DNA of 28,613 nucleotides from a virus. Numbering within the stretch: position 1 is the first letter of the stretch; every line of letters begins with the position of its first letter. Positions 1,948 through 25,400 of this stretch are shown here, piece by piece. The DNA lies in the IMG/VR virus record IMGVR_UViG_3300034418_002344, positions 1 through 28,613 of that record, one strand, 5' to 3'. The notes beneath the pieces are model-generated. The model was not told the origin of the DNA. It searched no databases and saw only the letters and a program-made list of their open reading frames with translations. The translations under genes and the position numbers were made by a program.

Positions 1948-3381
1948 ATGAGTAATCTATCGGAGTTATTACCCTCCGGTGGAGGGCAGAACGTAGTTGA
2001 GTTTACTGCTGACGGTTCGATTAGTAGTGGTGCGGCTGTGGCTTTGCAGAGTGACGGGACAGTAAAAGCAGTCTCTGGAGTAGCATCCGATGTTGGTACG
2101 GAAACTAACATAACAACAGATTATGTACCTGCGTTCAAAATGCTTGCTTACGACACTAACGCATCAAGAGGTTTGATGTTTAGGCAAAATTCAGGGGATA
2201 CGTCTGGTTATGTTCAAGTATTCTCTGTTTCTGGAACGACAGCTACTTTTCAAGCCGTAACATCATTTGCGTCCAACGTGTATACCGCGCTAAATGCTTG
2301 GATGGGCGCAGCTAGTGCCTATGACGCAAACGCACAAAAAATATTAATCGTTTACTCTGATGCAAATAACAGTTTTTACGGGACAGCTAGAGTTGCGACC
2401 ATAAGCGGCAACTCCGTATCTTTCGGAACGGCTGTTGTATTTGAGTCTCAGCAAGCTACACATATGGCTGCTACATATGATTCAAATGCTCAGAAGGTTG
2501 TTGTTTTTTATGGGGCAACTGATGGGTACGGCATTGTAGCAACAATATCTGGTACGTCAGTATCTTTTGGAACCAGAACATCGTATGTCACTGGTTTTCC
2601 TACATATGTGCAGGCTACGTTTGATTCCAACAATAACAAAACAGTAGTGGGATTTGTTAGAGCGGCGAGTGGTTATGCTAGTGCGGTTGTAGGCACAGTT
2701 TCGGGTACATCTATATCGTTCGGTTCTTACTCTGAGGCTGGAACGGCGACTTCTACATTTTTAGATATTCAATATGATCCTACTTCTCAGAAAACATTGT
2801 TGGCGTGGAAAGAGAGCAACACTTTAAAAACTTCAGTGGGAACAATAAGCGGAACAAGCATCAGTTTTGGAACGCCTGTATCTAATTCTCAATCTAGCCC
2901 AAGGGATACTAGTCTTGCGTATGACGCAACCTTACAAAAAGTAGTTGTTTCGTCAGGTCAATCACCAGTTAACGCTTATGTTATTACAGTTTCTGGAACC
3001 TCTTTGACGTATAGTGACGCTCAAAGATTAAGTGTTGATAATATTGGTTATTACAATTCTTCTGTCTATGTTCCTGACGCGGGTAAAGAAATATCAGTTT
3101 TTACTGCAAGTAGTGGCAGTGAAATAAATTATATTGTTTATCAAATTGGTGAGACAAACGTCGCTGACTTCATCGGCCTAGCCTCTGCTGCTATATCCGA
3201 TACCGCTACTGGTGACATCAACGTCAAGGGCGGGATAAACGAAGCCCAGACAGGGTTGACTATTGGCTCTGACTATTACGTTCAAGCTGATGGCACAGTG
3301 TCCACTACAAGCACAAGCCCGGCTGTGAAGATCGGCCAAGCAATTTCCGCAACCACAATTAACATGATGGATTTGACATGA
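1948..3381 (+). CDS. Seven-repeat beta-propeller-like tail/adhesin protein, copy 1
   Basis: This is the simplest of three adjacent paralogues (477 residues). It has an N-terminal module of about 50 residues (MSNLSELLPSGGG, then a segment ending VALQSDGTVKAV). A repeat domain at about 51-400 has seven copies of a (F/Y)D-x-NNKVVV strand motif separated by six GTVSGTSISFG-like strands. The C-terminal module (about 406-477) runs ADFIGLASAAISDTATG, YYVQADGTV, then IGQAISATTINMM. Seven evenly spaced beta units fit a seven-bladed propeller, a fold often used for carbohydrate or receptor binding. No enzyme motif is visible. The ATG abuts the previous stop; AGGA lies 12 bases upstream. Its blades are the most diverged of the set. 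Family role in phage adsorption is inferred from context. Confidence 0.78.
   Translation: MSNLSELLPSGGGQNVVEFTADGSISSGAAVALQSDGTVKAVSGVASDVGTETNITTDYVPAFKMLAYDTNASRGLMFRQNSGDTSGYVQVFSVSGTTATFQAVTSFASNVYTALNAWMGAASAYDANAQKILIVYSDANNSFYGTARVATISGNSVSFGTAVVFESQQATHMAATYDSNAQKVVVFYGATDGYGIVATISGTSVSFGTRTSYVTGFPTYVQATFDSNNNKTVVGFVRAASGYASAVVGTVSGTSISFGSYSEAGTATSTFLDIQYDPTSQKTLLAWKESNTLKTSVGTISGTSISFGTPVSNSQSSPRDTSLAYDATLQKVVVSSGQSPVNAYVITVSGTSLTYSDAQRLSVDNIGYYNSSVYVPDAGKEISVFTASSGSEINYIVYQIGETNVADFIGLASAAISDTATGDINVKGGINEAQTGLTIGSDYYVQADGTVSTTSTSPAVKIGQAISATTINMMDLT
2095..3159 (+). repeat. Seven-unit blade repeat, about 150 bases per unit
   Basis: Seven strand motifs (MLAYDTNASR, SAYDANAQK, ATYDSNAQK, ATFDSNNNK, IQYDPTSQK, LAYDATLQK, SVYVPDAGK) alternate with six SGTSISFG-type motifs. 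Units are about 45-50 residues long. The DNA of the units is strongly diverged while the peptide pattern is kept. Confidence 0.8.
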
Positions 3382-5894
3382 CGAATCTAACAGATTTATT
3401 ACCTGCGGGTGCGGGCGGCAAACAGGTTAGCTTCACGGCTAGTGGGGCGATTAGTAGTGGTCAGACTGTAGGGCTAAAAAGTGATGGCACAGTAGGCGCA
3501 ATTACAGGGAAAACAGGTTCATCGTCTGTGTTTGAATCGGCTGGGACAAATTATCATGCGGCTGTTTTTGACTCTAACAGTAACAAGGTAGTTATTGCGT
3601 ACCAAGATGAGGGTAATTCAAATTACGGAACAGCAGTGGTTGCTACGGTTTCAGGCAGCACAATATCTTATGGAACCCCGGTAGTTTTTGAGTCAGCCAG
3701 TACAAGTTCTACGTCTATTGTTTTTGATTCTTCTAATAATAAAGTTGTCATATCTTATCAAGACGCTGGCAATGGATTCTACGGCACATCTGCTGTAGGA
3801 ACAGTTTCTGGAACCAGCATTAGCTTTGGCACACCCGTAGTATTTGCTTCTGTATTTATTTCAACCCCAGCATCTACGTTTGATTCTAATGCCAATAAAG
3901 TTGTTATTACTTATGGGTATCAAAGTGGCAGTTATTCTGCTTGTGTGGTTGGGACAGTCAGCGGAACCAGTATATCTTTTGGCACTAAAGTAAACTTAGC
4001 AAACTACGGATTATTCCAAAACATAGTTTTTGATTCTACGAACAATAAGGTGATTGTCTTACAAAGGAAACAATCAGATAATCTCGGAGAGGCTTATGTT
4101 GGTACTGTCTCAGGCACATCTATAAGTTATGGCACACCCGTAGTATACAGTACCAGCACTGTAGTATATGTCGCCGCAGCTTTTGACAGCAACTCTGGCA
4201 AAGTTGTTATTGCTTACGATCAAGGAAACACAGGAACAGCAGTTGTTGGGACGGTATCCGGCACATCTATTTCATTCGGTTCTGAAAGAGTATTTACCAA
4301 CGTAAGCGTTACTATTAACAGAAATAATGGGACATTTGATTCTACGAATAATGTGTGTCTTGTAATTTACAAGAACGACAGCACTGGCTACCAAGAAGTA
4401 GTAGAGCTTTCAGTTAGTGGTACGACTACAACACAGTCAGGGCCATTTGTTGTATTAACGGACACCGTAAGAGATCAGGCTAAGGCTTTAGCTTATGACT
4501 CAAATGCCAATAAAACCGTTATATCTTATGATGACGGGTCAAATAGTAGTTACGGAACTGCTGTTGTCTACGACACAGATGGTTTATCAAACGCTGACTT
4601 CATAGGCATAACAGACGCTGCCATCTCAGACACTGCATCTGGCTCGGTGACAATCAAAGGCGGCATTGCAAGTAATTCGGACATAACTACTCCGCCTGTC
4701 AATTCTGCGGGGTCTAAAGTAGTGTTTGATGACGGCGGCCCTACCACCGGTATTTCTTCCGCGTATGACCCAGACACAGCTAAAGTAGTTAATGTGTTTT
4801 GTACTACTAACGTTCAGGGCATAGTAGGTACTGTTTCCGGCACTTCAATTAGTTACGGCAGCGCATCGTCAGCAAATGGCAACAGTAGCAGCGCCGCTCA
4901 GGTGGCATACGATACTGTAAATAATAAAATTGTTGCGGTGTATAAAGAAGGTTTTACTGATGCGCGTGTTGTTATAGGTACTGTGTCAGGAACAGCTATA
5001 AGCTGGGGAACTCCAGTAGTGTTTGCAAGTATTAACGCAGCTACTCCAAATGTGGCATTTGATACCAACGCTGGGAAAGTTCTTATAGTATATAAAGATC
5101 AAGCTGATAATAACTATGGAAAGGCGGTAGTGGGTACAGTTAGCGGGACGAGTATTTCTATAGGCTCACCCGTGACTTTTATGAATGCAAATGCTAATAA
5201 AATAGAACTTGTTTACGACGCAAATGCTCAAAAATCTGTCCTTGTAGTACAGGATGCTAGTAATAATATAGGAGTAGCATACGTAGCAACTATTAGCGGC
5301 ACCTCAGTATCTTTCGGCAGCCCGACTAATTTCTTAGCCTCTGCTGTTACCAACAACGCTTTATCTATTGTATACAATAGTACCGACAACAAGGTTATTG
5401 TGGGGTACGGAAAATCAAGCGACAACAAAGGTTACCTAACCACAGGTACAGTAAGTGGTACGTCGATTAGCTTTGCCGGGGAGACAGAGTTTAGTGGCAG
5501 CACCACTACTAATTACATTTCTTTGGCGTACAAAGCATCTGGCAATATCCTTGGAATGGTTTACAACATTGGCGGCTCCACCACTATAAAATTCAATAGC
5601 GCTGTTATATCAGGAACCTCTTTTTCTTTTGGCACAGAGCAAGAATTGGCGGCGGGGGCGACGGACACTACTGCTGCTGTTTTAGACGGGGCTTCAGGTA
5701 ATTTTGTTGCTAGTTATGGGGATGGCTCTAACAATTCTGATGGTACTACTAATGTAGCGTCGGTAAGCACTTCGTTAGTCACTAATAGCACCTACTACGT
5801 TCAAGCAGACGGCAGCTTGTCCACGACAACCTCTTCGGTACTAGCAGGCAAAGCCCTGTCCTCCACTAGCATTAACTTGGATTACACAACATGA
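3378..5894 (+). CDS. Double seven-repeat beta-propeller-like tail/adhesin protein, copy 2
   Basis: This 838-residue paralogue has the same N-terminal module (MTNLTDLLPAGAGG) and then a first seven-repeat domain (about residues 48-400). The C-terminal module starts at 406 with ADFIGITDAAISDTASG. Soon after its GG the module is interrupted by a second complete seven-repeat domain (about 445-798), and it resumes at about 806 with YYVQADGSLSTTTSS and GKALSSTSINL. The gene therefore carries two probable propellers, one inserted within the C-terminal module. It overlaps the preceding stop by four bases (ATGA) and the next start by four bases, with weak ribosome binding sites at both joints, which suggests translational coupling. 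It probably acts in host recognition on the tail; no catalytic motif is seen. Confidence 0.78.
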   Translation: MTNLTDLLPAGAGGKQVSFTASGAISSGQTVGLKSDGTVGAITGKTGSSSVFESAGTNYHAAVFDSNSNKVVIAYQDEGNSNYGTAVVATVSGSTISYGTPVVFESASTSSTSIVFDSSNNKVVISYQDAGNGFYGTSAVGTVSGTSISFGTPVVFASVFISTPASTFDSNANKVVITYGYQSGSYSACVVGTVSGTSISFGTKVNLANYGLFQNIVFDSTNNKVIVLQRKQSDNLGEAYVGTVSGTSISYGTPVVYSTSTVVYVAAAFDSNSGKVVIAYDQGNTGTAVVGTVSGTSISFGSERVFTNVSVTINRNNGTFDSTNNVCLVIYKNDSTGYQEVVELSVSGTTTTQSGPFVVLTDTVRDQAKALAYDSNANKTVISYDDGSNSSYGTAVVYDTDGLSNADFIGITDAAISDTASGSVTIKGGIASNSDITTPPVNSAGSKVVFDDGGPTTGISSAYDPDTAKVVNVFCTTNVQGIVGTVSGTSISYGSASSANGNSSSAAQVAYDTVNNKIVAVYKEGFTDARVVIGTVSGTAISWGTPVVFASINAATPNVAFDTNAGKVLIVYKDQADNNYGKAVVGTVSGTSISIGSPVTFMNANANKIELVYDANAQKSVLVVQDASNNIGVAYVATISGTSVSFGSPTNFLASAVTNNALSIVYNSTDNKVIVGYGKSSDNKGYLTTGTVSGTSISFAGETEFSGSTTTNYISLAYKASGNILGMVYNIGGSTTIKFNSAVISGTSFSFGTEQELAAGATDTTAAVLDGASGNFVASYGDGSNNSDGTTNVASVSTSLVTNSTYYVQADGSLSTTTSSVLAGKALSSTSINLDYTT
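3520..4580 (+). repeat. Seven-unit blade repeat, first domain of copy 2
   Basis: The seven motifs are AVFDSNSNK, IVFDSSNNK, STFDSNANK, IVFDSTNNK, AAFDSNSGK, GTFDSTNNV and LAYDSNANK. Six strand motifs of the GTVSGTSISFG type lie between them; the last is degenerate (LSVSGTTTTQSG). Confidence 0.8.
4710..5772 (+). repeat. Seven-unit blade repeat, inserted second domain of copy 2
   Basis: The seven motifs are SAYDPDTAK, VAYDTVNNK, VAFDTNAGK, LVYDANAQK, IVYNSTDNK, LAYKASGNI and AVLDGASGN, with six intervening SGTSISFG-like strands. The last two blades are the most degenerate. A sample line inside the domain (4921-4980) has only 20 G or C in 60 bases. Confidence 0.8.
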
Positions 5895-8131
5895 GCAATT
5901 TGAGTGAATTACTACCTGCCGGGGCAGGGGCAAAAAGTGCAGAGTTCGTGGCTAGTGGCACGTTGGGTAGTGGGGTTACTGTTGCTTTGCAAAGTGATGG
6001 GACGGTTGAGGCTGTTGGAGAGACTGTTATTAGTGAAGCAGTTGGAAGCTCGACTGTGTTTGAAACAGGACGGTCGTCATACCAAGCAACTGTTTACGAC
6101 TCTAGCAACAATAAGATAGTCGTGGCCTATCGAGACGAAGGAGACTCTACGGGCAAAGCTGTAGTTGGAACAGTAAGCGGGTCTACTATATCTTTTGGCT
6201 CGCCAGTTACTTTTAGGGCAGCGGACGTACAGTATGTTACCGCCGCATTTGATTCCAATGCGAATAAGGTAGTTATTTCTTACAGGGATAATGGCAATTC
6301 TACCTATGGCACTGCAATCGTAGGAACGGTAAGTGGAACTAGTATTTCTTTTGGCACTGCGGTTGTCTTTCTTACTGCTGCTACTCAATGGCCCACTATA
6401 ACTTTTGATTCTACAAACAACAAAATAGTTATTGCCTATTACTATTGGACTGGTTCGGCAAACCAAGGCACTGCGATTGTAGGAACAGTTTCAGGAACAA
6501 GTATTTCTTTTGGGGCAGGAGTAGCAATGGCATCTTCCATCCCCACTCAGACCGGCATAATATATGATTCAACTTCTAAAAAAATCATTGTAGCGTATAG
6601 AGATGCAGGTAATTCAGATTATGGAACTGCAATAGTAGGGACAGTATCTGGTACCTCTATATCTTTTGGTTCTGCAACAGTATTTGAGTCCGCCAATGTT
6701 GGATACATATCCTTAACACATGATTATACAAGCAATAAAGTAGTTATATCGTATAATGACGTTGCAAATTCTAGTTACGGAACTGCTATTGTCGGAACAG
6801 TTAGCGGAACTTCAATATCATTTGGAACAGCGGTTGTTTTTGAATCTGCTTCTACGCAATACACTTCTTGTGTCTATTTTCCACAAGGAAACGTAAACGT
6901 CATTGCTTATCGCGACCAAGGTAATTCTTATTACGGGACAGTAATTACAGGAACAGTCAGCGGAACAAGCATTTCTTTTGGCGCACCAACAGTGTTCAAA
7001 ACAACCCAATCTGATTATATATCTATGGCTTTAGATTCTACCAATAACAAAATGTTAATAGCCTACACTAATGACGCAACACCTTCTGGAGAGTCTGTCG
7101 TCTACCAACCTGCCTACACAACCACCAACTCCGCAGACTTCATAGGCATAACAGACCAAGCCATAGCAGACACAGCTACAGGCGCAGTGATTGTGCAGGG
7201 TGGGGTTAGTGAGAAGCTAAGTGGACTGACGGTCGGCGCGGATTACTATGTGCAGGATGATGGCACACTAAACACGGCAACTTCTGCTGTTAATTACGAT
7301 ATTGCCAACGGCTCTTATACGCAAGCATTTAGTGTTTCCTCGCAAGATACTTTTCCGTCAGGAGTAGCTTTTAATCCTGCGGGTACTAAGATGTTTGTTG
7401 TCGGTAATACTGGAGATGACGTAAACGAGTACACCCTAAGCACGGGCTTTGACGTAAGCACTGCATCATTCGTCGATAGCTTTAGTGTAAGCGGACAACA
7501 AGCAGCACCTATGAGCGTAGCTTTTAACACCGATGGCACTAAAATGTACATTGTTGGTGAGACAGAGGACACCGTGGCCGAGTATGCTTTAAGTGCTGGC
7601 TTTGATGTGTCTAGCGCGTCCTACACTCAAGCGTTTTCAATCGCCGCACAAGAAACAGAGGCACAGGGTATAACTTTTAATACCGATGGCAGCAAGATGT
7701 TTATTGTCGGTGATACCGGAAATGATATTAATGAGTACACCCTAAGCACGGGTTTTGACGTATCAACTGCATCATTCGTGGATAGCTTTAGTCTGGCTTC
7801 TCAAACTACTCAGCCTAAAGAAGGGGTCTTTAACACAGACGGAACAGAACTATATGTGCTTGCTAGAGACACCCAGAAAGTTTACAAATATACCTTGACC
7901 ACTGGCTTTGACGTATCAACTGCATCGTATGCCAGCGTAGAGTTTTCCGTTAGTTCTCAAGAAACCAGTCCTCAAGGATTAGCCTTTAGTGCTGATGGCA
8001 GCAAGATGTATGTTTGCGGTGATACTGGAGACGATATTAACCAGTACGCAACTACTTCCACCGCTACAAACTCAACCACCGTCCCCGCAGGGCGGGCTTT
8101 ATCAACAACCTCAATCCTATTGGAAGGATAA
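5891..8131 (+). CDS. Hybrid beta-propeller-like tail/adhesin protein, copy 3
   Basis: This 746-residue paralogue has the N-terminal module (MSNLSELLPAGAGAK), then a seven-repeat domain (about residues 52-405). The C-terminal module starts at about 415 (ADFIGITDQAIADTATG) and runs through YYVQDDGTLNTATSA. There it is interrupted by a different repeat domain (about 468-723) with five copies of a FN-DGTKMFIVG-TGDDINEYTLS-GFDVSTAS motif. The module finishes with VPAGRALSTTSILLEG. The interruption point differs from that in the preceding gene. The start overlaps the previous stop as ATGA, with a weak ribosome binding site. It is likely a receptor-binding tail component. The five-repeat type resembles YVTN/NHL-like propeller repeats found in bacterial and phage surface proteins, which is a resemblance and not a proven assignment. 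Confidence 0.78.
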   Translation: MSNLSELLPAGAGAKSAEFVASGTLGSGVTVALQSDGTVEAVGETVISEAVGSSTVFETGRSSYQATVYDSSNNKIVVAYRDEGDSTGKAVVGTVSGSTISFGSPVTFRAADVQYVTAAFDSNANKVVISYRDNGNSTYGTAIVGTVSGTSISFGTAVVFLTAATQWPTITFDSTNNKIVIAYYYWTGSANQGTAIVGTVSGTSISFGAGVAMASSIPTQTGIIYDSTSKKIIVAYRDAGNSDYGTAIVGTVSGTSISFGSATVFESANVGYISLTHDYTSNKVVISYNDVANSSYGTAIVGTVSGTSISFGTAVVFESASTQYTSCVYFPQGNVNVIAYRDQGNSYYGTVITGTVSGTSISFGAPTVFKTTQSDYISMALDSTNNKMLIAYTNDATPSGESVVYQPAYTTTNSADFIGITDQAIADTATGAVIVQGGVSEKLSGLTVGADYYVQDDGTLNTATSAVNYDIANGSYTQAFSVSSQDTFPSGVAFNPAGTKMFVVGNTGDDVNEYTLSTGFDVSTASFVDSFSVSGQQAAPMSVAFNTDGTKMYIVGETEDTVAEYALSAGFDVSSASYTQAFSIAAQETEAQGITFNTDGSKMFIVGDTGNDINEYTLSTGFDVSTASFVDSFSLASQTTQPKEGVFNTDGTELYVLARDTQKVYKYTLTTGFDVSTASYASVEFSVSSQETSPQGLAFSADGSKMYVCGDTGDDINQYATTSTATNSTTVPAGRALSTTSILLEG
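6046..7110 (+). repeat. Seven-unit blade repeat, first domain of copy 3
   Basis: The seven motifs are TVYDSSNNK, AAFDSNANK, ITFDSTNNK, IIYDSTSKK, LTHDYTSNK, CVYFPQGNV and MALDSTNNK. Six near-identical GTVSGTSISFG strands lie between them. This is the most regular of the four seven-repeat domains, with NSxYGTAIVGTVSGTSISFG nearly invariant at the peptide level. Confidence 0.82.
7292..8061 (+). repeat. Five-unit GFDVSTAS repeat, inserted domain of copy 3
   Basis: Five units of about 45-47 residues share the order SxQ, FNTDGTKM(F/Y)(I/V)VG, GDDxNEYTLS and GFDVSTAS(F/Y). Units 1 and 3 are nearly identical in peptide and similar in DNA, for example around 7429-7480 and 7735-7790. This repeat is unrelated in motif to the seven-repeat domains beside it. 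Confidence 0.8.
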
Positions 8132-8701: not shown

Positions 8702-8923
8702 GTGGAATACCAAGTAATTTTTAACGTAGGCATTGCGCTAGTCGGGTTTATTGGCGGGTGGATGGTAAACCGTGTATTTGTTTTGCTAGATCGGATAGAC
8801 GCGGAGATGCGCGAGATACCCATGCAGTATGTGTCTAAAGACGATTACCGCGAAGACATTCGCGAGATCAAAGAAATGCTTGGGGCTATCTTCAAGCGAC
8901 TGGACAACAAGGCAGACAAATGA
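8702..8923 (+). CDS. Small membrane protein, holin-like candidate
   Basis: This 73-residue protein starts at GTG with a GAAGGG site eight bases upstream. It has an N-terminal hydrophobic segment (about residues 5-27) followed by Asn-Arg and a charged helical tail with a likely coiled coil (DREDIREIKEMLGAIFKRL type, about 45-70). The positive charges follow the membrane segment, so the predicted topology is N-out/C-in, opposite to its upstream neighbour. Small one-span proteins with charged C-termini in lysis cassettes are often holins, antiholins or pinholins, but no family was recognised. Its stop overlaps the lipase start (ATGA), which suggests coupled translation. Confidence 0.68.
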   Translation: MEYQVIFNVGIALVGFIGGWMVNRVFVLLDRIDAEMREIPMQYVSKDDYREDIREIKEMLGAIFKRLDNKADK

Positions 8924-9693
8924 AACTCGACCCCGTACTGCTCAACATGGCCTGTAGCTGGGCTATGAAGGCTTACAATGACAAGAACAAAGACGCTATT
9001 AAAATCGAAAGTAAGTGGACATCTACTACAGTATATATAGCGAAACGTAAGTCCATCGATGTCATTGCCTTCAGGGGTACACAGCAGGGCAGGGATTGGT
9101 TAACAGATGCTTTTGTAGTACCCGTGCCATACGCGGGTAGGCTGTGCCACGGTGGGTTTGCTATGGCCCATAAGTCAGTCTGGAAAGAAGTTAAGAAACA
9201 CCTAGACCCCAAGAAGCGCACCCTGATAACCGGTCATAGCCTTGGTGGGGCGTTAGCGGAGTTGTCTGCGGCTAAACTGAACGGTAAGCACGAGAATATA
9301 AACCTGATTACTTTCGGTAAGCCGAACGTGTTTTTCAAGGGCTTCAAGAAGCCAATGACTCTTGATAATCAAATCTCCTGTGTGCAGGGCAGCGATATGG
9401 TGGCTAGAATCCCACGCTTTTGCTACGGCCCCTCAAGCTCACAGACTATGCTGTACTTCAGCAATACCGGCCCGGATTATATAAACCCCAGCAAAGACAC
9501 CAGAGTTGCTGACAGGGGTGACCTGAGAGACCGGATAGCTGACCACATGATGGACGGCTACAAGGAAAGGCTAAAAGAGTTTTTGGATGAGCAAGAAGCA
9601 CAAGCTAATAAAGTAGTGCAAATGGATAAGGACAAAAAACTAGCCCGTAAAGAACTGGAGGATATGGCGGATGAAATGTTTATTAAAGATTAG
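8920..9693 (+). CDS. Class 3 lipase (alpha/beta hydrolase)
   Basis: This 257-residue protein matches the lipase_3 family. The nucleophile elbow GHSLGG places Ser107 after the strand TLIT. ITFGKPNVF follows at about 130-138. GSDMVARIP (Asp159) corresponds to the family's GDPVPxxP region, and DHMMDGY (His209) supplies the third triad residue. An early FRGTQQGRDWLTD segment (51-63) is the usual oxyanion-side motif. It probably hydrolyses ester bonds in glycerolipids. No signal peptide is visible, so it would need a holin lesion to leave the cytoplasm or would act on the inner membrane from inside. A Lys/Glu-rich helix forms the last 45 residues. It lies between membrane proteins and a lipoprotein, so a lysis role is likely. 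A role in virion entry is the alternative. Confidence 0.85.
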   Translation: MKLDPVLLNMACSWAMKAYNDKNKDAIKIESKWTSTTVYIAKRKSIDVIAFRGTQQGRDWLTDAFVVPVPYAGRLCHGGFAMAHKSVWKEVKKHLDPKKRTLITGHSLGGALAELSAAKLNGKHENINLITFGKPNVFFKGFKKPMTLDNQISCVQGSDMVARIPRFCYGPSSSQTMLYFSNTGPDYINPSKDTRVADRGDLRDRIADHMMDGYKERLKEFLDEQEAQANKVVQMDKDKKLARKELEDMADEMFIKD

Positions 9694-10397: not shown

Positions 10398-12287
10398 ATG
10401 GCGATTAAAAAACTACAATTCAAAGCGGGTGTAAACAGAGAAACCACCCGTTACGCCGCCGAAGGTCAGTGGTACGAGACCGACAAGGTGCGTTTCAGAC
10501 GTGGCCTACCCCAGAAAATAGGCGGTTGGGAGCAGGTTTCTTCCAATACTTATCTAGGTGTAGCACGCTCACTATTCAACTGGGCCACGCTGTCCGGACA
10601 AAACCTCGTAGCTGTTGGTACCAACCTCAAATACTACATAGAACGAGGTGGGGCTTACTTCGATGTTACCCCTATTAGAGCAACCACAGCAGCGGGCGAT
10701 GTTACGTTTGCAGCCGTAAACGGCGATGCCACACTTACCGTATCTGATACAGCCCACGGTGCCATCCAGAATGACTTTGTTACCTTTTCTGGAGCTGTCT
10801 CATTAGGCGGCAATATTACGGCGGACGTGCTCAATCAGGAGTATCAGATAGCCACCATAATTAACGAAGATTCCTACACAATTGAGGCTAAGGACACTAG
10901 CGGCAACGAGGTTCTGGCTAACGCATCAGATACAGGCAACGGCGGGGCTTCTGTCGTAGGTGCCTACCAGATCAATACAGGTAATGAGATTGAAGTGCCG
11001 TTTTCCGGTTGGGGTGCGGGGCGTTGGGGGTTTGGAACGTGGGGTACAGGCGGTACAACACTGGCTCCTATGCGTATCTGGAGTCAATCTAACTTCGGTG
11101 AGGACTTGTTCTTTGCCCACCGTGGTGGGGCACCACTGTACTGGGATGCAAGCTCTGGGGTCGGTACACGGGGCGTATACGTCAGTTCTTTAGGTGGAGC
11201 GTCTGATGTACCTACTACAGTAAATTTAGCGTTTGTATCAGATATATTCCGCTTTGCGTTCTGTTTTGGGGCTAATGACATAGGCACCTCTACACTTGAT
11301 CCTATGTTAATTCGTTGGTCTGACCAAGAGGACGTGGCTAATTGGACACCTGCCGCGACTAACCAAGCGGGTAGTTTACGGCTATCAGACGGTACAGAAA
11401 TCGTTGATGCTATCCAAGCACGACAGGAAATATTAGTCTGGTCAGATGCGGCCCTGTACGGCCTACAATATCTGGGTGCTCCAGAGGTATGGGGAGCGCA
11501 GCTTCTAGGCTCAAACATCACCATAGCCAGCCCGAATGCGGCTGTGTACTCAAACAATATTGCTTATTGGATGGGTCTGAACACGTTCTACTACTATGAT
11601 GGTACGGTTAAAACACTACCTTGTGACGTGCGTAGCTATATATTTGATGACTTTAACCAAGGCCAAGCAGATCAGGTAGTCTGTGGTTCTAACGAGCAGT
11701 TTGATGAGATATGGTGGTTCTACTGCTCTGCTGGGGCTACACAGAATGATCGGTATGTGGTGTATAACTACGTCGAAAACGTCTGGTACTACGGTAATTT
11801 GTCTCGCTCAGCGTGGCTTGATGCTGATTTACGTGATTTTCCTATAGCTGCTACTTTTGGTAACAAACTGGTTAACCACGAGAAAGGTGTGGATGATAAC
11901 GAGACCGGCACGCCTACAGCATTTACAGCAAATATTACCTCAGCACAGTTCGATCTGGACGATGGCGACCGGTTTATGCTGATTAACCGTATGCTGCCTG
12001 ATATGACGTTTGACGGCTCTACAGCAGATTCTCCTGCGGCTACCATGACTCTGAACCCCTTGGAAAACTCAGGTTCTGGACGGTATAACCCAGCGTCGGT
12101 CGGGGGCAACAGCAGTGCAACGGTCACCAGAACAGCCGTATTTCCTGTAGAAGAATTTACAGGGCAGGTATTTACACGGGTACGGGGTCGGCAGATGTCG
12201 ATCAAGATTGAGTCTACAGAGCTAGGAGTAACTTGGAAACTGGGCGCACCTAGGATGGATATGCGGCCTGACGGTAGGAGAGGCTAG
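10398..12287 (+). CDS. Tail hub / packaged-DNA stabilisation protein, P22 gp10-like
   Basis: The 629-residue protein starts with IKKLQFKAGVNRETTRYAAEG and KVRFRRGLPQKIGGWEQ, the opening typical of phage neck or DNA stabilisation proteins. A beta insert at about 95-185 contains HGAIQNDFVTFSGA. A Trp/Gly segment follows at about 204-218. The remainder is rich in Trp and Tyr strand pairs (IAYWMGLNTFYYYDG, DEIWWFYCSA), like the propeller core of gp10-type proteins. The last 40 residues (FTRVRGRQMSIKIESTELG, then MDMRPDGRR) are the common C-terminal signature. It probably seals the portal and links it to the tail. GAGG overlaps the lysozyme stop and precedes the ATG. The TAG overlaps the next GTG by one base. 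The exact P22 correspondence is my inference. Confidence 0.75.
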   Translation: MAIKKLQFKAGVNRETTRYAAEGQWYETDKVRFRRGLPQKIGGWEQVSSNTYLGVARSLFNWATLSGQNLVAVGTNLKYYIERGGAYFDVTPIRATTAAGDVTFAAVNGDATLTVSDTAHGAIQNDFVTFSGAVSLGGNITADVLNQEYQIATIINEDSYTIEAKDTSGNEVLANASDTGNGGASVVGAYQINTGNEIEVPFSGWGAGRWGFGTWGTGGTTLAPMRIWSQSNFGEDLFFAHRGGAPLYWDASSGVGTRGVYVSSLGGASDVPTTVNLAFVSDIFRFAFCFGANDIGTSTLDPMLIRWSDQEDVANWTPAATNQAGSLRLSDGTEIVDAIQARQEILVWSDAALYGLQYLGAPEVWGAQLLGSNITIASPNAAVYSNNIAYWMGLNTFYYYDGTVKTLPCDVRSYIFDDFNQGQADQVVCGSNEQFDEIWWFYCSAGATQNDRYVVYNYVENVWYYGNLSRSAWLDADLRDFPIAATFGNKLVNHEKGVDDNETGTPTAFTANITSAQFDLDDGDRFMLINRMLPDMTFDGSTADSPAATMTLNPLENSGSGRYNPASVGGNSSATVTRTAVFPVEEFTGQVFTRVRGRQMSIKIESTELGVTWKLGAPRMDMRPDGRRG

Positions 12288-12947: not shown

Positions 12948-14933
12948 ATGAGTAACGGCCCCTACATAGACCCAGCAGTTTTTGACGCAATGGGTACGCA
13001 GGCAGCAGCGAAGTATGGTGCTGCAAATATAGCGGCTGAAGGAGCAGCTAGCTTAGGATTAGGGGCTTTAGCGAAGGGTCTTGGGCCACTGGCTGCCGCT
13101 TACGGTGTTTTAGACCTACTGGGCTTCTTTGATAGCACCTTGCAAGAAACTCCAATGACGCCCGAGGAAGCGGCAGAGTTTCAAGCAAAAAGCCGTATAG
13201 AGCGTGCAGTTAATGACATAGCGACGAGCGCGGAAGGCGGCACTGAAGGCGCTACGGAGGCGCTGGAAGACGCTATGGCCGAGGGAATGCTGCTAGGTAT
13301 ATCTCCTACCGAAATAGTAGCCCCAGTGCTGAATCAACGCATACCCGGTGTAACAGATGTCCCGATACTAGGAGATGTCCTTGAAGGGGCAATGAACAAA
13401 GCCGCTGAATATGTCGACAAAGGGCTTGAATACATAGGGATGAACGATGTAAGGGGTGATGCTGTTATTGGCCCCGGAGGCATAAGTATTGATTTTGAGC
13501 CTGTAGGAACAAGAAGTCAGCAAAGAGGAACGACTACACCACAAGGTACATCTACGCGTCCGGGGGGAAGCACAGCGACAGTTACAACAGGCAGTGAAAG
13601 AGGAGACATAATACTTAGTGGTGGTACGGGTGCTGACGTTGTAGAAGCGGAAGCTGGTGTAACAGGTATTGAAGCAATACATTTTGTGCTCTCACAAACT
13701 TGTGGAGATGACGAAACCTACGACCGCGCTACTTTCAGTTGTATACCTAAGTCTGGTACTGGCACCAAAAAGGCTGAGAAAGTAATTTGCCCAGCAGAGT
13801 ACGAAAATGCTGGTGCGGAAGTAGACAGTCTTGAGGAATGTGGCGACAAGAAGAGCACCGTTACTACAGATGACCTTTGTGATAACGCGATATACGCCGC
13901 TGCAAACCCCGATATATGTGGGGACACAACAGGCACTGGTGAAATCACTGTTGATGACCCATGCCTAGACCCCGAGTATAAGGCTGCAAACCCCATACAG
14001 TGTGGCGATATGGGGCCAAAACTTGATCCTTGCCTAGACCCAGCGTATGCTGCTGAAAATCCGGTAGAGTGCGGTACTCCACCCACTGATCCTTGCCTAG
14101 ACCCAGCGTATGCTGCTGAAAATCCGGTAGAGTGCGGAACAAAAACTGATCCTTGCCTAGACCCAGCGTATGCTGCTGAAAACCCAGAAATATGCGGTAC
14201 AAAAACTGATCCTTGCCTAGACCCAGCGTATGCTGCTGAAAACCCAGAAATATGCGGTACAAAAACTGATCCTTGCCTAAATCCAGCGTATGCTGCTGAA
14301 AACCCAGAAATATGTGGGACAACAACTGATCCTTGCCTAAATCCAGCGTATGCTGCTGAAAACCCAGAAATATGCGGGACAACAACTGATCCTTGCCTAA
14401 ATCCAGCGTATGCTGCTGAAAACCCAGAAATATGCGGGACAGTCCGTATTATCGAGTGTCCGCCGAATAGTGATAAGCCCGGCAGAGCAGTGCCTACGGG
14501 GCAGACTGTACAGAGTTTCTGTTATGAAGGCGCACCGCCACCTCCCGAAGACCCCTGTTTAAATCCAGCATATGCAGCAGAGAATCCGATAGAGTGCGGT
14601 ACAAAAACTGACCCGTGCTTGGATGCAGACTATGCAGCAGCAAACCCAGAGAAGTGCGGGGTAGATACTGATCTTTGTGATAACCCAGTATATGCGTACT
14701 TTAATCCAGAAATTTGTGGTGTCGTACAAACCCCCAGTACGAGTTTGCCTAGTAGTTCTCGTGGCGTTAGAGTAACAGGGCCAGAGCTAGCGCAAATTGA
14801 CTATTTATACGATATAGGTGGCGAAAGTATTTTTAACCCTAATATGGCAAGCCGCCCTTATGCAGCAAAAAGTGGCGGTATAATAGATACTTATAATGAG
14901 TTTGATGAACTTATAGATTTATTGAGAGGCTAA
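12948..14933 (+). CDS. Virion protein with 12 Cys-pair repeats
   Basis: The 661-residue protein has an Ala/Gly-rich hydrophobic or amphipathic stretch (about residues 28-60), then an acidic helical region to about 140. A Thr/Gly-rich linker (about 180-230) follows. Residues about 308-595 hold twelve copies of a motif DPCLDPAYAAENPxxCG, each with two Cys spaced C-x12-C. A different Cys segment (IIECPPNSDKPGRAVPTG, then SFCYEG) interrupts the array at about 502-530. The C-terminus is ordinary and acidic. The hydrophobic N-terminus and location ahead of internal virion genes suggest a membrane-interacting ejected protein or structural protein. No domain of known function was recognised. GTGAG lies just before the ATG. 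The Cys pairs could form disulphides outside the reducing cytoplasm. Confidence 0.72.
   Translation: MSNGPYIDPAVFDAMGTQAAAKYGAANIAAEGAASLGLGALAKGLGPLAAAYGVLDLLGFFDSTLQETPMTPEEAAEFQAKSRIERAVNDIATSAEGGTEGATEALEDAMAEGMLLGISPTEIVAPVLNQRIPGVTDVPILGDVLEGAMNKAAEYVDKGLEYIGMNDVRGDAVIGPGGISIDFEPVGTRSQQRGTTTPQGTSTRPGGSTATVTTGSERGDIILSGGTGADVVEAEAGVTGIEAIHFVLSQTCGDDETYDRATFSCIPKSGTGTKKAEKVICPAEYENAGAEVDSLEECGDKKSTVTTDDLCDNAIYAAANPDICGDTTGTGEITVDDPCLDPEYKAANPIQCGDMGPKLDPCLDPAYAAENPVECGTPPTDPCLDPAYAAENPVECGTKTDPCLDPAYAAENPEICGTKTDPCLDPAYAAENPEICGTKTDPCLNPAYAAENPEICGTTTDPCLNPAYAAENPEICGTTTDPCLNPAYAAENPEICGTVRIIECPPNSDKPGRAVPTGQTVQSFCYEGAPPPPEDPCLNPAYAAENPIECGTKTDPCLDADYAAANPEKCGVDTDLCDNPVYAYFNPEICGVVQTPSTSLPSSSRGVRVTGPELAQIDYLYDIGGESIFNPNMASRPYAAKSGGIIDTYNEFDELIDLLRG
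14025..14441 (+). repeat. Tandem 60-base coding repeat, seven close copies
   Basis: Units begin at 14025 (63 bases), 14088, 14148, 14208, 14268, 14328 and 14388 (last copy incomplete). They start with GATCCTTGCCTA and contain CCAGCGTATGCTGCTGAAAA. Units 3 and 4 differ at hardly any base, and units 5-7 share AATCCAGCG in place of GACCCAGCG. Diverged copies extend the array on both sides (about 13876-14020 and 14551-14721), giving twelve at protein level. Near-identity of the central DNA copies points to recent expansion or homogenisation. Confidence 0.9.
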
Positions 14934-19422: not shown

Positions 19423-22400
19423 ATGGCGACTCTTGAGGAACTCGGTAGTGCGTTAAAAAATGCGCACGCCGCTGGGGATGTAGAGGCAGCTAGAAAACTA
19501 GCTAACGCCATACAAACATACAGCCCACAGCCAGAGCCAACTGAAGACACTTCTCTGTTCGGCTACATACCTGAAACTGCCAAAGCTATTGCTGCCGGTG
19601 GTGCTGGGATGATTGAGTCTGCCCTGACCGGTGCGTCATTTATACTACCCGAAGAAGCCGAACAGGCTGCTCGCCGTAAGATTGCCGAAGTTGGCGGCGG
19701 GGTACAGGAGTTCCTTGCCCCTGATGAAGCCTACGAAGGTACCTATCTTGACCTGATGCGTGGTGTCGGTTCGACACTACCGTTCTTAGCTGCTGCTCCG
19801 TTCGGTGCCCCCGGTATTATTGCTGGTGCCGCCGTAGGTGTGGGTGCTGGTGCAGGTGAAGCTGCGCAACGTGCAGAGGCTGCTGGGGCTACTGAGGAAG
19901 AGATCAGCACTGCTGCTGGCTACGGTATGATTCCGGGCGCGTTTGAGATGATAGGCCCTACGCGGATTATCAGGCGTGCGCAGAGAGCACTTGGCCCTAA
20001 TACTAGCAATGTTGCCGATGCGTTAAATAACAGTTTCAAAGCCCGGCTTGGTAGGGTAAGCGAAGGCAAACTTGGTCGTATAACTAAAGCGGCTATGGAT
20101 GAGGCAGCGCAAGAAGCCTCGGCTGAAGTATTACAGAATCTTATTTCACAGGGTGTCTACGATCCCGACACCGGAACCTTTGAGGGTGTAGGCGAGTCTG
20201 CCAAGATCGGTGGTGGTGTAGGTGCTATCCTTGCGTTGTTTACCGAAATGATTGTTCCGGGTAGGCAGCGTGGCCCAACCCCGCAAGAACCAGCCGCACC
20301 AGAAGAACCAGCACCAGAAGAACCCGCAGCACCAGAACCTATTCCACCAGAAGGTGACCTACTGGGGCCAACAACAGTATCCGATATTTTAGATACAGAT
20401 ACTTTAGAAGAAATAGGTATCGATCTTGAAACAAATACTGCTGAAAAATTGTTTGGGTTAAATTGGGCTGATCCAGAAGAAAGAGCGGAAGCAGAACAAA
20501 TATTAGAAGATTACATTGATCGTGGTTTAGTAAGAGCTTATAAACCTCAACTTGTTTCGCGCATAAGAGCTGTTTTAGATACCACCCCTCTTGTAAAACC
20601 GGAAGAACCGGAAGATGAAGTACGAAGAGCTACGGAAGTATCGCCTGACCAAATAGATATAGAAGAACAGATAGCGGCTAGTGAGGCTGCGGAACGCGCC
20701 GAAGAGCAAGCTGTACAAGCTGAAGAGCGAGCTGCCAGAGAAGATGAGCGAGCGTTAGCTGAAGGTCGCGTAGCCGAGCGTCGCCAGCGAGAGTCCGTCG
20801 AGAAACGTAGACAAGTACTCCTACCTATTATAGAGCGTCAAGATATTGACGGCGTAGAAAACTTAAAGCGTGCATTTAGTGCGGAGTTGGGCAGACAAGG
20901 TTTTACAAATACTGAGCCTACCGAAGAAGAACTAACATTAATTAACCGTGCTGCCGATGTGCGGGGGGCTTTTGCCACCCAAGAAGCCGAACAAGAAGCC
21001 GTAGAAGCCGCACGAGATGCCGCGCAGGCAGAAGGAACCGCAGAGTTAGAAGCACTCATACCAGAGCGTAGACAGCGGCCTATTCCTGTAGAGACCACTG
21101 AACAAGATGCACAGCGTGCCGAAGCTGCTCGACTTAATAGAGAGCGAATGGATCGCACGGGTCGGGGTACTGAAGGTCAGCTTGAATTCCCAGCTATAGA
21201 GCGTGCTGAACGTGCCGCCGCCCGTGCCCCTCAGACTGAGGAAGTTGTAGAAGAAGCACCTAAAGTACGTAAAGCAGACAAGCGATTTTTTGATCGTCTT
21301 GGCGTTGCCCCTCAAGCTCCTGTACGTAAACAAGTTCGAGGTATGGACGTTACCAGCGAAGAGGTTCGTACTGCTTTGACCAACTTAGGCCGTAATCGCA
21401 ACGTCAGTGAACAGACCAAGATCAATATAAACAACTTCCTACAAGAAACCCCAGAGGCTGTTCCCCAGCAAGACTTATTTGCCCCTACCCGTCCTCGTCC
21501 GACTGCGTTACAACAAGAGCAAGCTAGGATTCAAGCAGAGAAAGAAGCGGCAAAAGCGGCACCACCTACAGCTAGGAAAAGGAAAAGGAAAAAGACAACA
21601 AAAACTAAAAAAGTAGAGAAGCAGCAAGAAAGACAAAAACGTATAGGTAGAGCGCCTGCCCCCGAAGCATTTGCCCAGCAACCTCAACTGTTAGGCCCAT
21701 TGTCCCCTACCGACAGAGACTTGTTCGCTACAGATGAAGCTCTGGCACGGTACGCAAAGGTTGCTAGAAATGCAAATAATCTTTTGGCTACGATTGCTTA
21801 CGACTCTACAGTTGCCAGACACCCTGAAGTGGCTAAAGCAGAAGCTGATACACGTAAAGTAGCTCGTAAGGCAATACGAGCGATTAGGGATAAGGGTAGC
21901 CCAGAACTATTAGAAAACCTGAATCAGCATCTACGGTACCAAACCTTTTTAGAAGACGCTGTAAACAGAAGAGATAGTAGGAACAAATCACTTGAAAGTC
22001 TAAGGGGCACCATAGCTGGCACTTTGTATACAGGAGAACAAGAGTCCCAAACAAAAGCGTGGAACCGAACAGGCTGGTGGAACAGTGCAGAAGCAAAGGC
22101 TCCGAGAGAAGTTATTCAAGTTGATGTAGATCAAGCCATCAAGGACGGTATTGTTGATGGTAACGTCCAAGAAATAGTAGCTGAGTCAGAAGTAGAAAAC
22201 GGCACAGTTGAAAACCCTGAAGGTTTAGAGGGACTTCAAAATACTAAAGACCTTCTAGTTAAGAACGCTGTTGCTGCTTCTATGCCGGAAGTGTCCGAGA
22301 CAGTAAACGATTTGTTGTTGGACAACAATATAGGTGGCGCACTAGATCAGATAGCCAGAGATAACCCCAACACTGATATCGCACGCACTGCCCGTACACT

Positions 22401-25400
22401 TGCGGAAAGGTTGCGCGGTACGAGCACCGCAGTTGAGTTTGCCGAAGGTGTTGTGGACAGAGATGGTAAACCAGCGCCCTCTGCGTACGATTTCCAGAAC
22501 GATGTTATTCAGATTAATCTGGATATGCCGGTCAGTACACACGCTGTACTGCACGAATCCGCACACGCAGCTACGCATTCAGTACTGTCTAACCCCAACC
22601 ATCCGGTCACAATTAAGCTACAGAAACTGTACAGCAATCTGAAAGACAAACTACCCAACGCTTACGCGATGGCAGGTTTACGAGAGTTTGCGGCAGAGGT
22701 GTACAGTAATACAGAATTCAAAGCTCAACTGGCTGCTTACAAGCCCAGTGGTAAAAAGCGAAGTGCGTGGCGTGATTTCTTAGACGCAGTTGCTAGATTC
22801 TTAGGGTTTAACATAGACGCAACTAACGCCACAACTAAAGCCTTAGAATACATAAACGTGATTATGGCAACTGAGCCTAACACCCGAGATGCTACCTCCG
22901 TAGTTGACAACCTGACTAACGGCGATGTAGACGAGGCGATGGTAGAACTTACCCGCGTAGGTCGCACCGGTCTGGACAAGAAAACTAAAGAGGAAGCCTA
23001 CGAGTCGTTCTTGACAAACATAAATAACAAGAGCGCCAAGTTTATGATGAATGCTATCAATGGTCTCGGTTTAGAAGCCATTGTAGATATGTCTAAAGGT
23101 AAACTCCCTACCGTCGAAGAAATGCAGGATATTCTGTACGACATAGACGGCACTCGTAATGAAGAAATGAAAACCTTCACTATGATACTAAAAGACATTT
23201 TAGGAGCTTTTAGTACCAAAGCGGGTGTGGGTGTAGACAGTGCTGCGTTAGAGAAGTTCAGTAGGCTGGTAAGTGAAAGCACTATAGACGGTATTGATGT
23301 TACCCGTCCCAGAAGCTACTACGCCAAGCACCGTGTCGAGTACGGTACTCAAGACCTTCAGAAGAAAGAACAGCTATTCGATACCAAAGAAAAAGCGGAA
23401 GAGTTCAAGAAGAAGCTGGAAGATGAACGCCGTGAAGCTAAGAAAGCCGGAAAGACTACTACTATCGGTACCATCCGACTTACTGAAGCTACACAAGAGC
23501 GTACCGATAAGTATGACGAACTCAAAGCGTTAATGCTGGAACTTAATTCGTCTCAACGTGCTGCGTACACCAAGATGCGCGACATGTACAAAAACATTAA
23601 CGACAAGATTCTTGAAGCCGAAGATGCCAACATAAATCAATTGGAGTTAGACCCCAACGTACAGAAAACTGTACGTGAAGTTCTGTTCCGTAAGCGGTTA
23701 GATGTCGGCGTCGTAGACCCATACTTCAGACTCTACCGTGAAGGCGAGTACTGGATACAGTATGAGTTTCAAAAGGCGGGAGTCGAAGGTACTGAATTTG
23801 GTTATGCTTCATTTGATAACCCCGGCGATAGGCAAGTGTTTGCGGATCGGTTGAGTAATGACCCTACTGTCATAAATATCAACCCAACACTTACTGCGGA
23901 TCAAATGCGGTCTAGGATAATTAACGGTCAACTGCCAATATCTTTGGTCACCACGTTAAAAGCCGACTTAGAAGGTATATTCAAAGACCTAGAGCTTTCT
24001 AGTAAAGAAGATAAGGCAGCTATTGACCGTAAGAAAGGCGAGATACAGGACTTCCTTGCTGACATAGTACTTAAATCGCTTCCAGAGCAATCAATTGTAC
24101 AGGCTCGCCAAGAACGTAGAGGCTTTGCCGGATTTGAAGCAGACCCAATTTATACGTTTGAAAAGTCTATGCCTGCGTTCATTAATAGTTACGCAAACAT
24201 AAAGCACAAGGTCAAACTACAGAGTGCAGCTAATCGTGTTATGGAAGAAGGCCGACAGGCTGAACTTGCTGGCGACACATTTATGAAAGAAGTCGCAGTA
24301 GCTGTAGCTGGAAGTAAAGCAGATACAGACCAACAGTTTGGCAAGCTACCAAGCTATGCAGAGTTCAGTAAGAATCCTTACTTGAACGAACATGTACGAC
24401 TAGCCCGATCACTGACCTTTATGTCTACTATCGGTTTGAGTGTCAGTTCTGTAGCTGTCAACGTATCAATTATTCCTGTGGTGCTTCAGTCTCGGCTTGC
24501 GGGTGAGTATGGTGGTTTCAAAGCTACTAAAGCTACGCTTGAAGCTATGAACTTTTACGCAGGGACATGGGGCAAAGTAAAACGAGAGGGTCTGGGTGAG
24601 GTAACTGTAGATGCAAACGGAGACTTCGTAACTACCGAACAAGATCGGTATGACCACGGTGGGTTTGCGATAACTAATGAATTTGAAGGTGAGAAGGCAG
24701 AGAGGTACAAAAACTTCGCTCCTTTGATAACCCGTATTAAAGAAATGGGTTTTGATACTCGCAGTATCGCAGCAGAAACATCTGATCCTGATAGTCCCAG
24801 TAGTCCGTTTGTGAATAAGCTAGCCTACGTATCCAGCTTTATGTTCCATCACAGTGAACGTGGTATTCGTCAAGTCAGTGCGATGAGTACCTACATACTT
24901 GAGATGGAAAAACTGACGGGTAAAAAGTTTAAAGATATTGATGCAGCAGATGTTGACCAGTACGGAGAACAAGCCTCCAGAAAAGCTACTGATGTTGCCT
25001 TGTGGGTTAACGCTTCGGCATTGCTAACTACTGGCTCTAGGTTTGGTCAAACGAATCTGGGTAGCTTGGTTATGCAATTTAAGCGTGTTCCCGGCCAGTT
25101 CTTATACACCCAGATACGTATGCTGGATGCTATATTTAAAGATATGACCGGAGCTGCCAGAACTGAAGCTGAAATTGAAGAAGCACGGATTCTAAGAAAT
25201 ACATTTATGTGGCTCACTGGTACGGGCGCTACACTGATAGGTGTTAAAGGTGTCCCACTGTACGGTGTAGCAATGGCTATATGGAACATGTTCTTAGATG
25301 ACGACGAAGATGATGCAAATACTATCGTTGCTAAAACGCTTGGGCCTGAATGGTACTACGGTGCCATCGCAAATATGGGTGGTGTAGACCTGACTGATCG

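Follow-up and report, generated by a model that had tools for sequence, protein, structure and literature searches.

Among described phage proteins, the receptor-binding protein of phage phi11 has a five-bladed beta-propeller whose last blade is closed by an N-terminal strand, and the C-terminal domain of phage PhiKZ gp131 (PDB 4GBF) is a seven-bladed propeller (PMC4901313). Here we analyze IMG/VR virus record IMGVR_UViG_3300034418_002344, 28,613 nucleotides of an aquatic bacterial virus (this whole stretch is called the window), in which three tandem open reading frames on the plus strand, neighbors overlapping by 4 bases, encode repeat proteins that we call P1, P2, and P3. These very likely contain closed seven-bladed rings and are probably the host-recognition (receptor-binding) proteins of a short-tailed phage. 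Like PhiKZ gp131 and the phi11 protein, they would be tail-associated propellers; unlike those two, to which no sequence relation was detectable in a PDB sequence search, they have highly repetitive blades, several rings per virus, a carrier domain into which the rings are inserted, and, in relatives, a diversified face.

The nearest known evolutionary parallel, by analogy rather than by membership, appears to be the fungal NOD-like receptors (NLRs) of the HNWD family. HET-D and HET-E have predicted seven-bladed WD40 rings of very similar repeats that undergo concerted evolution, and their repeat positions 10, 11, 12, 14, 30, 32, and 39 show a high ratio of nonsynonymous to synonymous change (dN/dS) and lie on the interaction surface (PMC12222747). 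Some relatives of P1-P3 likewise combine similar blades with apparently diversifying positions on one face (unit columns 9, 11, 12, 13, 29, 31, and 35). The phage rings differ in not being WD40 by sequence, in belonging to phage tail genes rather than immune receptors, and in having seven units per domain where HNWD alleles vary (10-12 conserved repeats). The Photorhabdus PLL/PHL lectins, in which sugar sites lie between blades and rely on tryptophan (PMC6943638), are similar in fold, unit size, and whole-ring superposition, but the phage unit has no conserved tryptophan column and the PDB sequence search found no similarity to them. Near-identical blades from recent amplification have been described by Pereira and Lupas (2022; PMC9218822), together with a continuum of blade numbers within lineages; the phage family shares the near-identical blades, but its blade number is essentially fixed. 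The fold is therefore a known one, whereas the ring family is without a Pfam or PHROG model, and a search of part of the literature found no paper on it. Its relatives in an annotated phage are two hypothetical proteins of Lentibacter phage vB_LenP_ICBM2: gp49, a relative of the seven-unit ring with 26.6% identity over 95% of P1 and five units detected, and gp51, a relative of a five-unit ring described below, with five units.

Unit number and predicted fold of the rings

An earlier note on this DNA counted 28 blade motifs and 24 linkers in four domains, and both a regular expression and a repeat hidden Markov model (HMM) agree with it. P1, the two halves of P2, and the N-terminal part of P3 each have seven evenly spaced copies of the FDSxxNK-type core, which makes 28, and the linker motif was matched 6 times in P1, 12 in P2, and 6 in P3, which makes 24. 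All units except one score above 3 bits with the repeat HMM (27/28; single-unit E values 4e-4 to 2e-25); the exception, at 2 bits, is the weak last unit of P1, which nevertheless stands in register at the expected spacing. Units matched over the full model run to the linker; the final unit of each seven-unit domain stops short of it, at model column 41-47 of 52, so that the linker is indeed absent from the last unit in all four domains, as had been noted. Because unit spacing is so regular over the homologous set (52.25 +/- 1.6 residues, 1,215 intervals), chance is excluded as the origin of the repeats, and the repeat observation is real and was correctly read. Searches of P1-P3 against Pfam and PHROG gave no meaningful family match; WD40 was absent among Pfam matches at E up to 1, and the consensus unit contains neither GH nor WD.

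Structures of P2 and P3 were predicted with AlphaFold2 from family alignments, and the P1 ring was judged by homology, since it aligns with P3 over its ring. The P3 model has a mean predicted local distance difference test score (pLDDT) of 90.5 and a predicted template modeling score (pTM) of 0.64; for P2 the values are 79.6 and 0.49, the carrier parts being poor. Both models have four strands per unit, and their rings can be overlaid in full on solved seven-bladed beta-propellers (Z 29-34, root-mean-square deviation [rmsd] approximately 2.5 Å): P3 residues 49-407 on Escherichia coli YncE (Z 32.8, rmsd 2.5 Å, 305 residues), P2 residues 41-400 on the same protein (Z 33.8, rmsd 2.3-2.5 Å over 305-307 residues), and P2 residues 442-797 on WDR61 (Z 31.2, rmsd 2.5 Å, 292 of 293 residues). 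The best structural matches of P3 include virginiamycin B lyase, PLL lectins, WD40 proteins, and the designed seven-bladed WRAP-T. As the matched structures are complete seven-bladed rings, the models are taken as closed, and the closed seven-bladed propeller proposed from the letters alone is, on these models, very likely correct for P1-P3. Velcro closure, which had been suggested with it, is also predicted: strand D is missing from the last unit, and the first unit has a strand ahead of it (E55-58 in P3). Whole-model Foldseek lists were filled by multi-propeller eukaryotic proteins and were uninformative on function; a profile search of PDB sequences gave no match.

A constant seven in homologues had been expected of a closed ring. 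We collected IMG/VR relatives from 139 loci (numbered L001 onward where they must be told apart), with 224 proteins carrying repeat hits and 215 domains scored. Seven units are present in 200 of the 215 domains, 188 directly and 12 more after counting undetected units at normal spacing; a freely varying number was not seen. The remaining 15 comprise four directly joined doubles of fourteen and eleven others, most of them remote or truncated proteins in which some units escape detection. Most short counts were rejected as real, their missing terminal units falling at normal spacing, and eight-unit counts in a first tally were rejected because the extra matches were very weak (1 bit or less). 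Two strong six-unit proteins occur, in L107 and L129; the latter equals L076 minus exactly 156 bp with zero mismatch elsewhere, and may reflect assembly collapse or recent loss.

Some relatives have unusual architectures. A 2,350-amino-acid (aa) protein (L058:3427-10476), on a contig binned as a Euryarchaeota metagenome-assembled genome (MAG), has four carrier-plus-seven-unit modules in a row (28 units), and two proteins (L088:242-5334 and L127:1474-6922) have fourteen units in a row, with no carrier segment detected between the sets of seven. A 1,477-aa relative (L026:2201-6631) has a diverged repeat region. Because a distant relative on a Bacteroidia MAG contig (L061:1473-3473) has a signal-peptide-like N-terminus, the repeat may occur outside phages too.

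The earlier note overlooked a fifth repeat domain, whose unit number is also constant. Residues 467-725 of P3 contain five units of approximately 51 residues, of a type (FNTDGTKMFVVG...NEYTLSTGFDVSTAS) unrelated to the seven-unit one, and each is modeled as four strands. This type was found in 17 proteins, with exactly five units in 16 and four scored in one divergent protein. Phage ICBM2 has a gene for each of the two repeat types (gp49 and gp51), whereas P3 has both fused in one protein.

Variable positions and blade amplification

In an alignment of 1,624 unit hits, conservation is seen in the strands and in the AB and CD turns of the 52-column unit. When blades of one protein are paired at 60% identity or more, the seven columns listed above differ in 67-89% of the pairs. 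Placed on the secondary-structure (DSSP) string of P3, they fall in the DA loop and start of strand A and in the end of strand B and BC loop, so that all seven lie at one (DA/BC, top) blade edge and hence on one face of the propeller disc. In blade pairs at least 75% identical, second codon positions of these columns differ by 0.52 and four-fold sites by 0.26, an excess with a 95% bootstrap interval of 0.22-0.29. When columns were chosen in half of the phages and tested in the other half, the same seven were recovered in three splits, with second-position differences of 0.50-0.53 against 0.25-0.28 at four-fold sites. By this measure, in relatives whose blades are similar, the seven top-edge positions evolve faster than synonymous sites.

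In five relatives (L086, L090, L076, L072, and L124), four-fold divergence among a protein's own blades is 0.14-0.26, against 0.44-0.55 to the same-index blade of the nearest other phage, meaning that blades were re-amplified or homogenized in these lineages, yet seven was kept. Concerted evolution throughout the family was rejected: of 130 seven-unit proteins, only 26 have within-protein divergence below that to the nearest other phage, which makes it a trend of certain lineages. Hypermutation by a diversity-generating retroelement was likewise rejected, since reverse transcriptase (RVT_1) was not found in 16 records including the window, some of which may be fragments, and since the hypervariable columns are as variable at third codon positions as other columns are. 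We tentatively suggest that the family may diversify its binding face without a retroelement, through blade amplification or exchange, with seven fixed by geometry and seven top-edge positions per blade (at most 49 per ring) under diversifying selection; it could then be a phage counterpart of the fungal HNWD sensors, a possibility we put at somewhat less than even.

Carrier domain, tail-fiber context, and proposed role

One N-terminal segment (MSNLSELLP...SDGTV) and one C-terminal segment (FIGI..AI..GG.....YYVQ.DG.LST....AG.A.S.T) are common to P1-P3, and we infer that together they form one small carrier domain. In the alignment, the N-terminal segment of each protein is followed by an inserted seven-unit ring, and the second ring of P2 and the five-unit ring of P3 are inserted further down, at two other places in the carrier. 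A spliced query, run against annotated phages to find a carrier that lacks a ring, returned a single partial match.

The gene order of the window (fiber genes, lysis genes, a P22 gp10-like gene, large internal proteins, and an opposite-strand helicase) is the same in Roseobacter phage CRP-901, where the slot matching P1-P3 holds gp50, annotated "putative tail fiber protein," before the lysis genes and the "constituent protein." In relatives, proteins with N-terminal tail-fiber PHROG matches (phrog_38058, E 5e-33; phrog_30742; phrog_2631) carry the carrier-plus-ring module at their C-terminal end, and tail-fiber genes lie immediately upstream of the ring genes in L066, L085, and L086. The ICBM2 relatives sit among tail-fiber and tail-fiber-assembly genes. 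The ring proteins are thus encoded with, or fused to, tail-fiber proteins in all three respects: fusions, neighbors, and the CRP-901 slot. The P22 gp10/needle-head-like protein, together with the CRP-901 synteny, indicates that the virus is probably of a short-tailed type without a long tail. The earlier suggestion of rings stacked along the tail is not supported, since there is probably no long tail to stack them on; the rings are inserted in the carrier.

Gene order, fusions, and upstream fiber genes argue for a role of P1-P3 at the tail-fiber tip, and receptor binding is likely, given the tail-fiber slot, the fiber fusions, and the signs of diversifying selection on one face. In the proposed arrangement, a small beta-rich carrier domain would hold one or two complete beta-propellers in its loops, four of the inserted rings being seven-bladed and one five-bladed, and each ring would be closed by velcro, with strand D of the last blade supplied by the segment ahead of the first. 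The conserved strands and bottom (AB, CD) turns would serve as a scaffold, and the top-edge DA and BC loops as a binding surface that is diversified by selected point changes and renewed as blades are amplified or exchanged. With three paralogous genes, one virion would have up to five different rings. The proposal draws on what the sequences record (unit counts and their constancy, gene slot, fiber fusions, and the top-edge nonsynonymous excess in relatives); from these we infer presence in the virion, a position at the fiber tip, and binding of a host surface molecule, whether glycan or protein.

Several observations weigh against this proposal or its selection component. Relatives whose blades are at least 75% alike are the source of the selection signal. 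In the window the seven columns are the most variable (amino-acid difference 0.84-0.91 against 0.48-0.61), the blades being more diverged; second-position change there only equals that at four-fold sites (0.65-0.75 against 0.64-0.66), so that positive selection is not demonstrable in blades so diverged. Same-index blades of different proteins show no excess of second-position change, as four-fold sites are near saturation (0.63). Within-protein blade pairs share history and are not independent, and likely blade exchange complicates substitution ratios. Finally, the carrier has a weak, sub-threshold resemblance to phage cement (capsid decoration) proteins: its pieces match the Phage_cement_2, Phage_cement, and XM1 minor capsid families at E 0.06-0.36, the spliced carrier likewise stays sub-threshold, and the best scores to cement families are 13.8 and 14.1 bits, against a curated cut-off of 24. 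If P1-P3 decorated the capsid through a cement-like carrier, propellers on the head would bind cells, mucus, or particles, and the proteins would not be the primary receptor-binding protein. We consider this unlikely, because all cement and capsid matches are under curated cut-offs, the P1-P3 genes lie within a tail-fiber/lysis cluster with tail-fiber genes directly upstream, and the whole carrier-plus-ring module ends tail-fiber proteins in relatives.

Long tandem repeats of phage fibers are often fibrous, and an open solenoid or fibrous beta-repeat might be expected here on those grounds; it is contradicted by the models, the whole-ring superpositions, the fixed seven and fixed five, and the invariably truncated last unit, which make it extremely improbable. 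The superposing rings also include virginiamycin B lyase (Z 32.0) and rhamnose-glucuronate lyase (Z 28.6), and a class-3 lipase gene is nearby, so that the propellers might be enzymes (lyase or glycosidase) degrading a surface polymer in the manner of tailspike depolymerases. Near-symmetric repeats, with the most variable positions on the top face, where propeller enzymes usually hold their active site, make this very unlikely; Pfam and PHROG returned no catalytic family, and no search was made for residues conserved in one blade only. A version of the receptor-binding proposal in which the rings act as multivalent lectins that bind sugar between every two adjacent blades, as seven-bladed PLL/PHL do, gains from the PLL lectins being among the best structural matches (Z 29-31, rmsd 2.5-2.9 Å) and from the location of PLL sites between blades (PMC6943638). 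Tryptophan is only a rare aromatic substitute in the 52-column unit, so a PLL-type site is not conserved, although a sugar could be bound by other chemistry, and we regard this version as possible though rather doubtful.

Host recognition by marine phages is largely unknown because many tail-tip proteins carry no recognized family. The ring module is common in IMG/VR (at least 558 confirmed stretches in one degenerate-pattern scan) yet is covered by no model in Pfam or PHROG; with a profile of its own, it would mark probable host-recognition genes across many uncultured phages. The seven positions that vary in each blade offer a testable map of the proposed binding surface, and the retention of seven through blade re-amplification offers a natural test of whether ring geometry limits the number of repeats.

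Features and neighboring genes of the window

Table 1. Positions in the window of P1-P3, their domains, and two other genes.
Feature	Position	Strand	Description or basis
Tail-fiber-like protein upstream of P1, 315 aa	1000..1947	+	phrog_31104, E 1e-22; phrog_972 (tail fiber proximal subunit), E 9e-8
P1, 477 aa	1948..3381	+	Carrier domain with one inserted seven-unit propeller
P1 N-terminal carrier segment (MSNLSELLP... to DGTV)	1948..2085	+	Near-invariant alignment columns; also begins P2 and P3
P1 predicted seven-bladed propeller, about residues 50-397	2095..3138	+	Alignment with P3
P2, 838 aa	3378..5894	+	Carrier domain, two seven-unit propellers inserted at two places
P2 predicted first seven-bladed propeller, about residues 47-405	3516..4592	+	Structural superposition of model
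P2 predicted second seven-bladed propeller, about residues 441-799	4698..5774	+	Structural superposition of model
P3, 746 aa	5891..8131	+	Carrier domain with predicted seven-bladed and five-bladed propellers
P3 predicted seven-bladed propeller, about residues 50-408	6038..7114	+	Structural superposition of model
P3 predicted five-unit second propeller, residues 467-725	7289..8065	+	Four strands per unit in model; counts in relatives
P22 gp10/needle-head-like virion structural protein	10398..12287	+	phrog_3287, E 5e-68; marker of short-tailed virion

Other genes of the window were noted in passing. A class-3 lipase gene (PF01764, E 7e-20) at 8920-9693 lies between the ring genes and the endolysin gene. 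Two further proteins are repetitive: one of 308 aa (63-989) is made of short repeats (GVEGTGAVGTVSI...) and gave no match in a family search, and another (12948-14933) has nine copies of a cysteine-containing repeat, DPCLDPAYAAENPEICGT, and had no match in PHROG. A 2,211-aa protein (19423-26058), also without a family match, has a single HESAH (HExxH) motif at residue 1044 and is probably an internal virion protein that is ejected.

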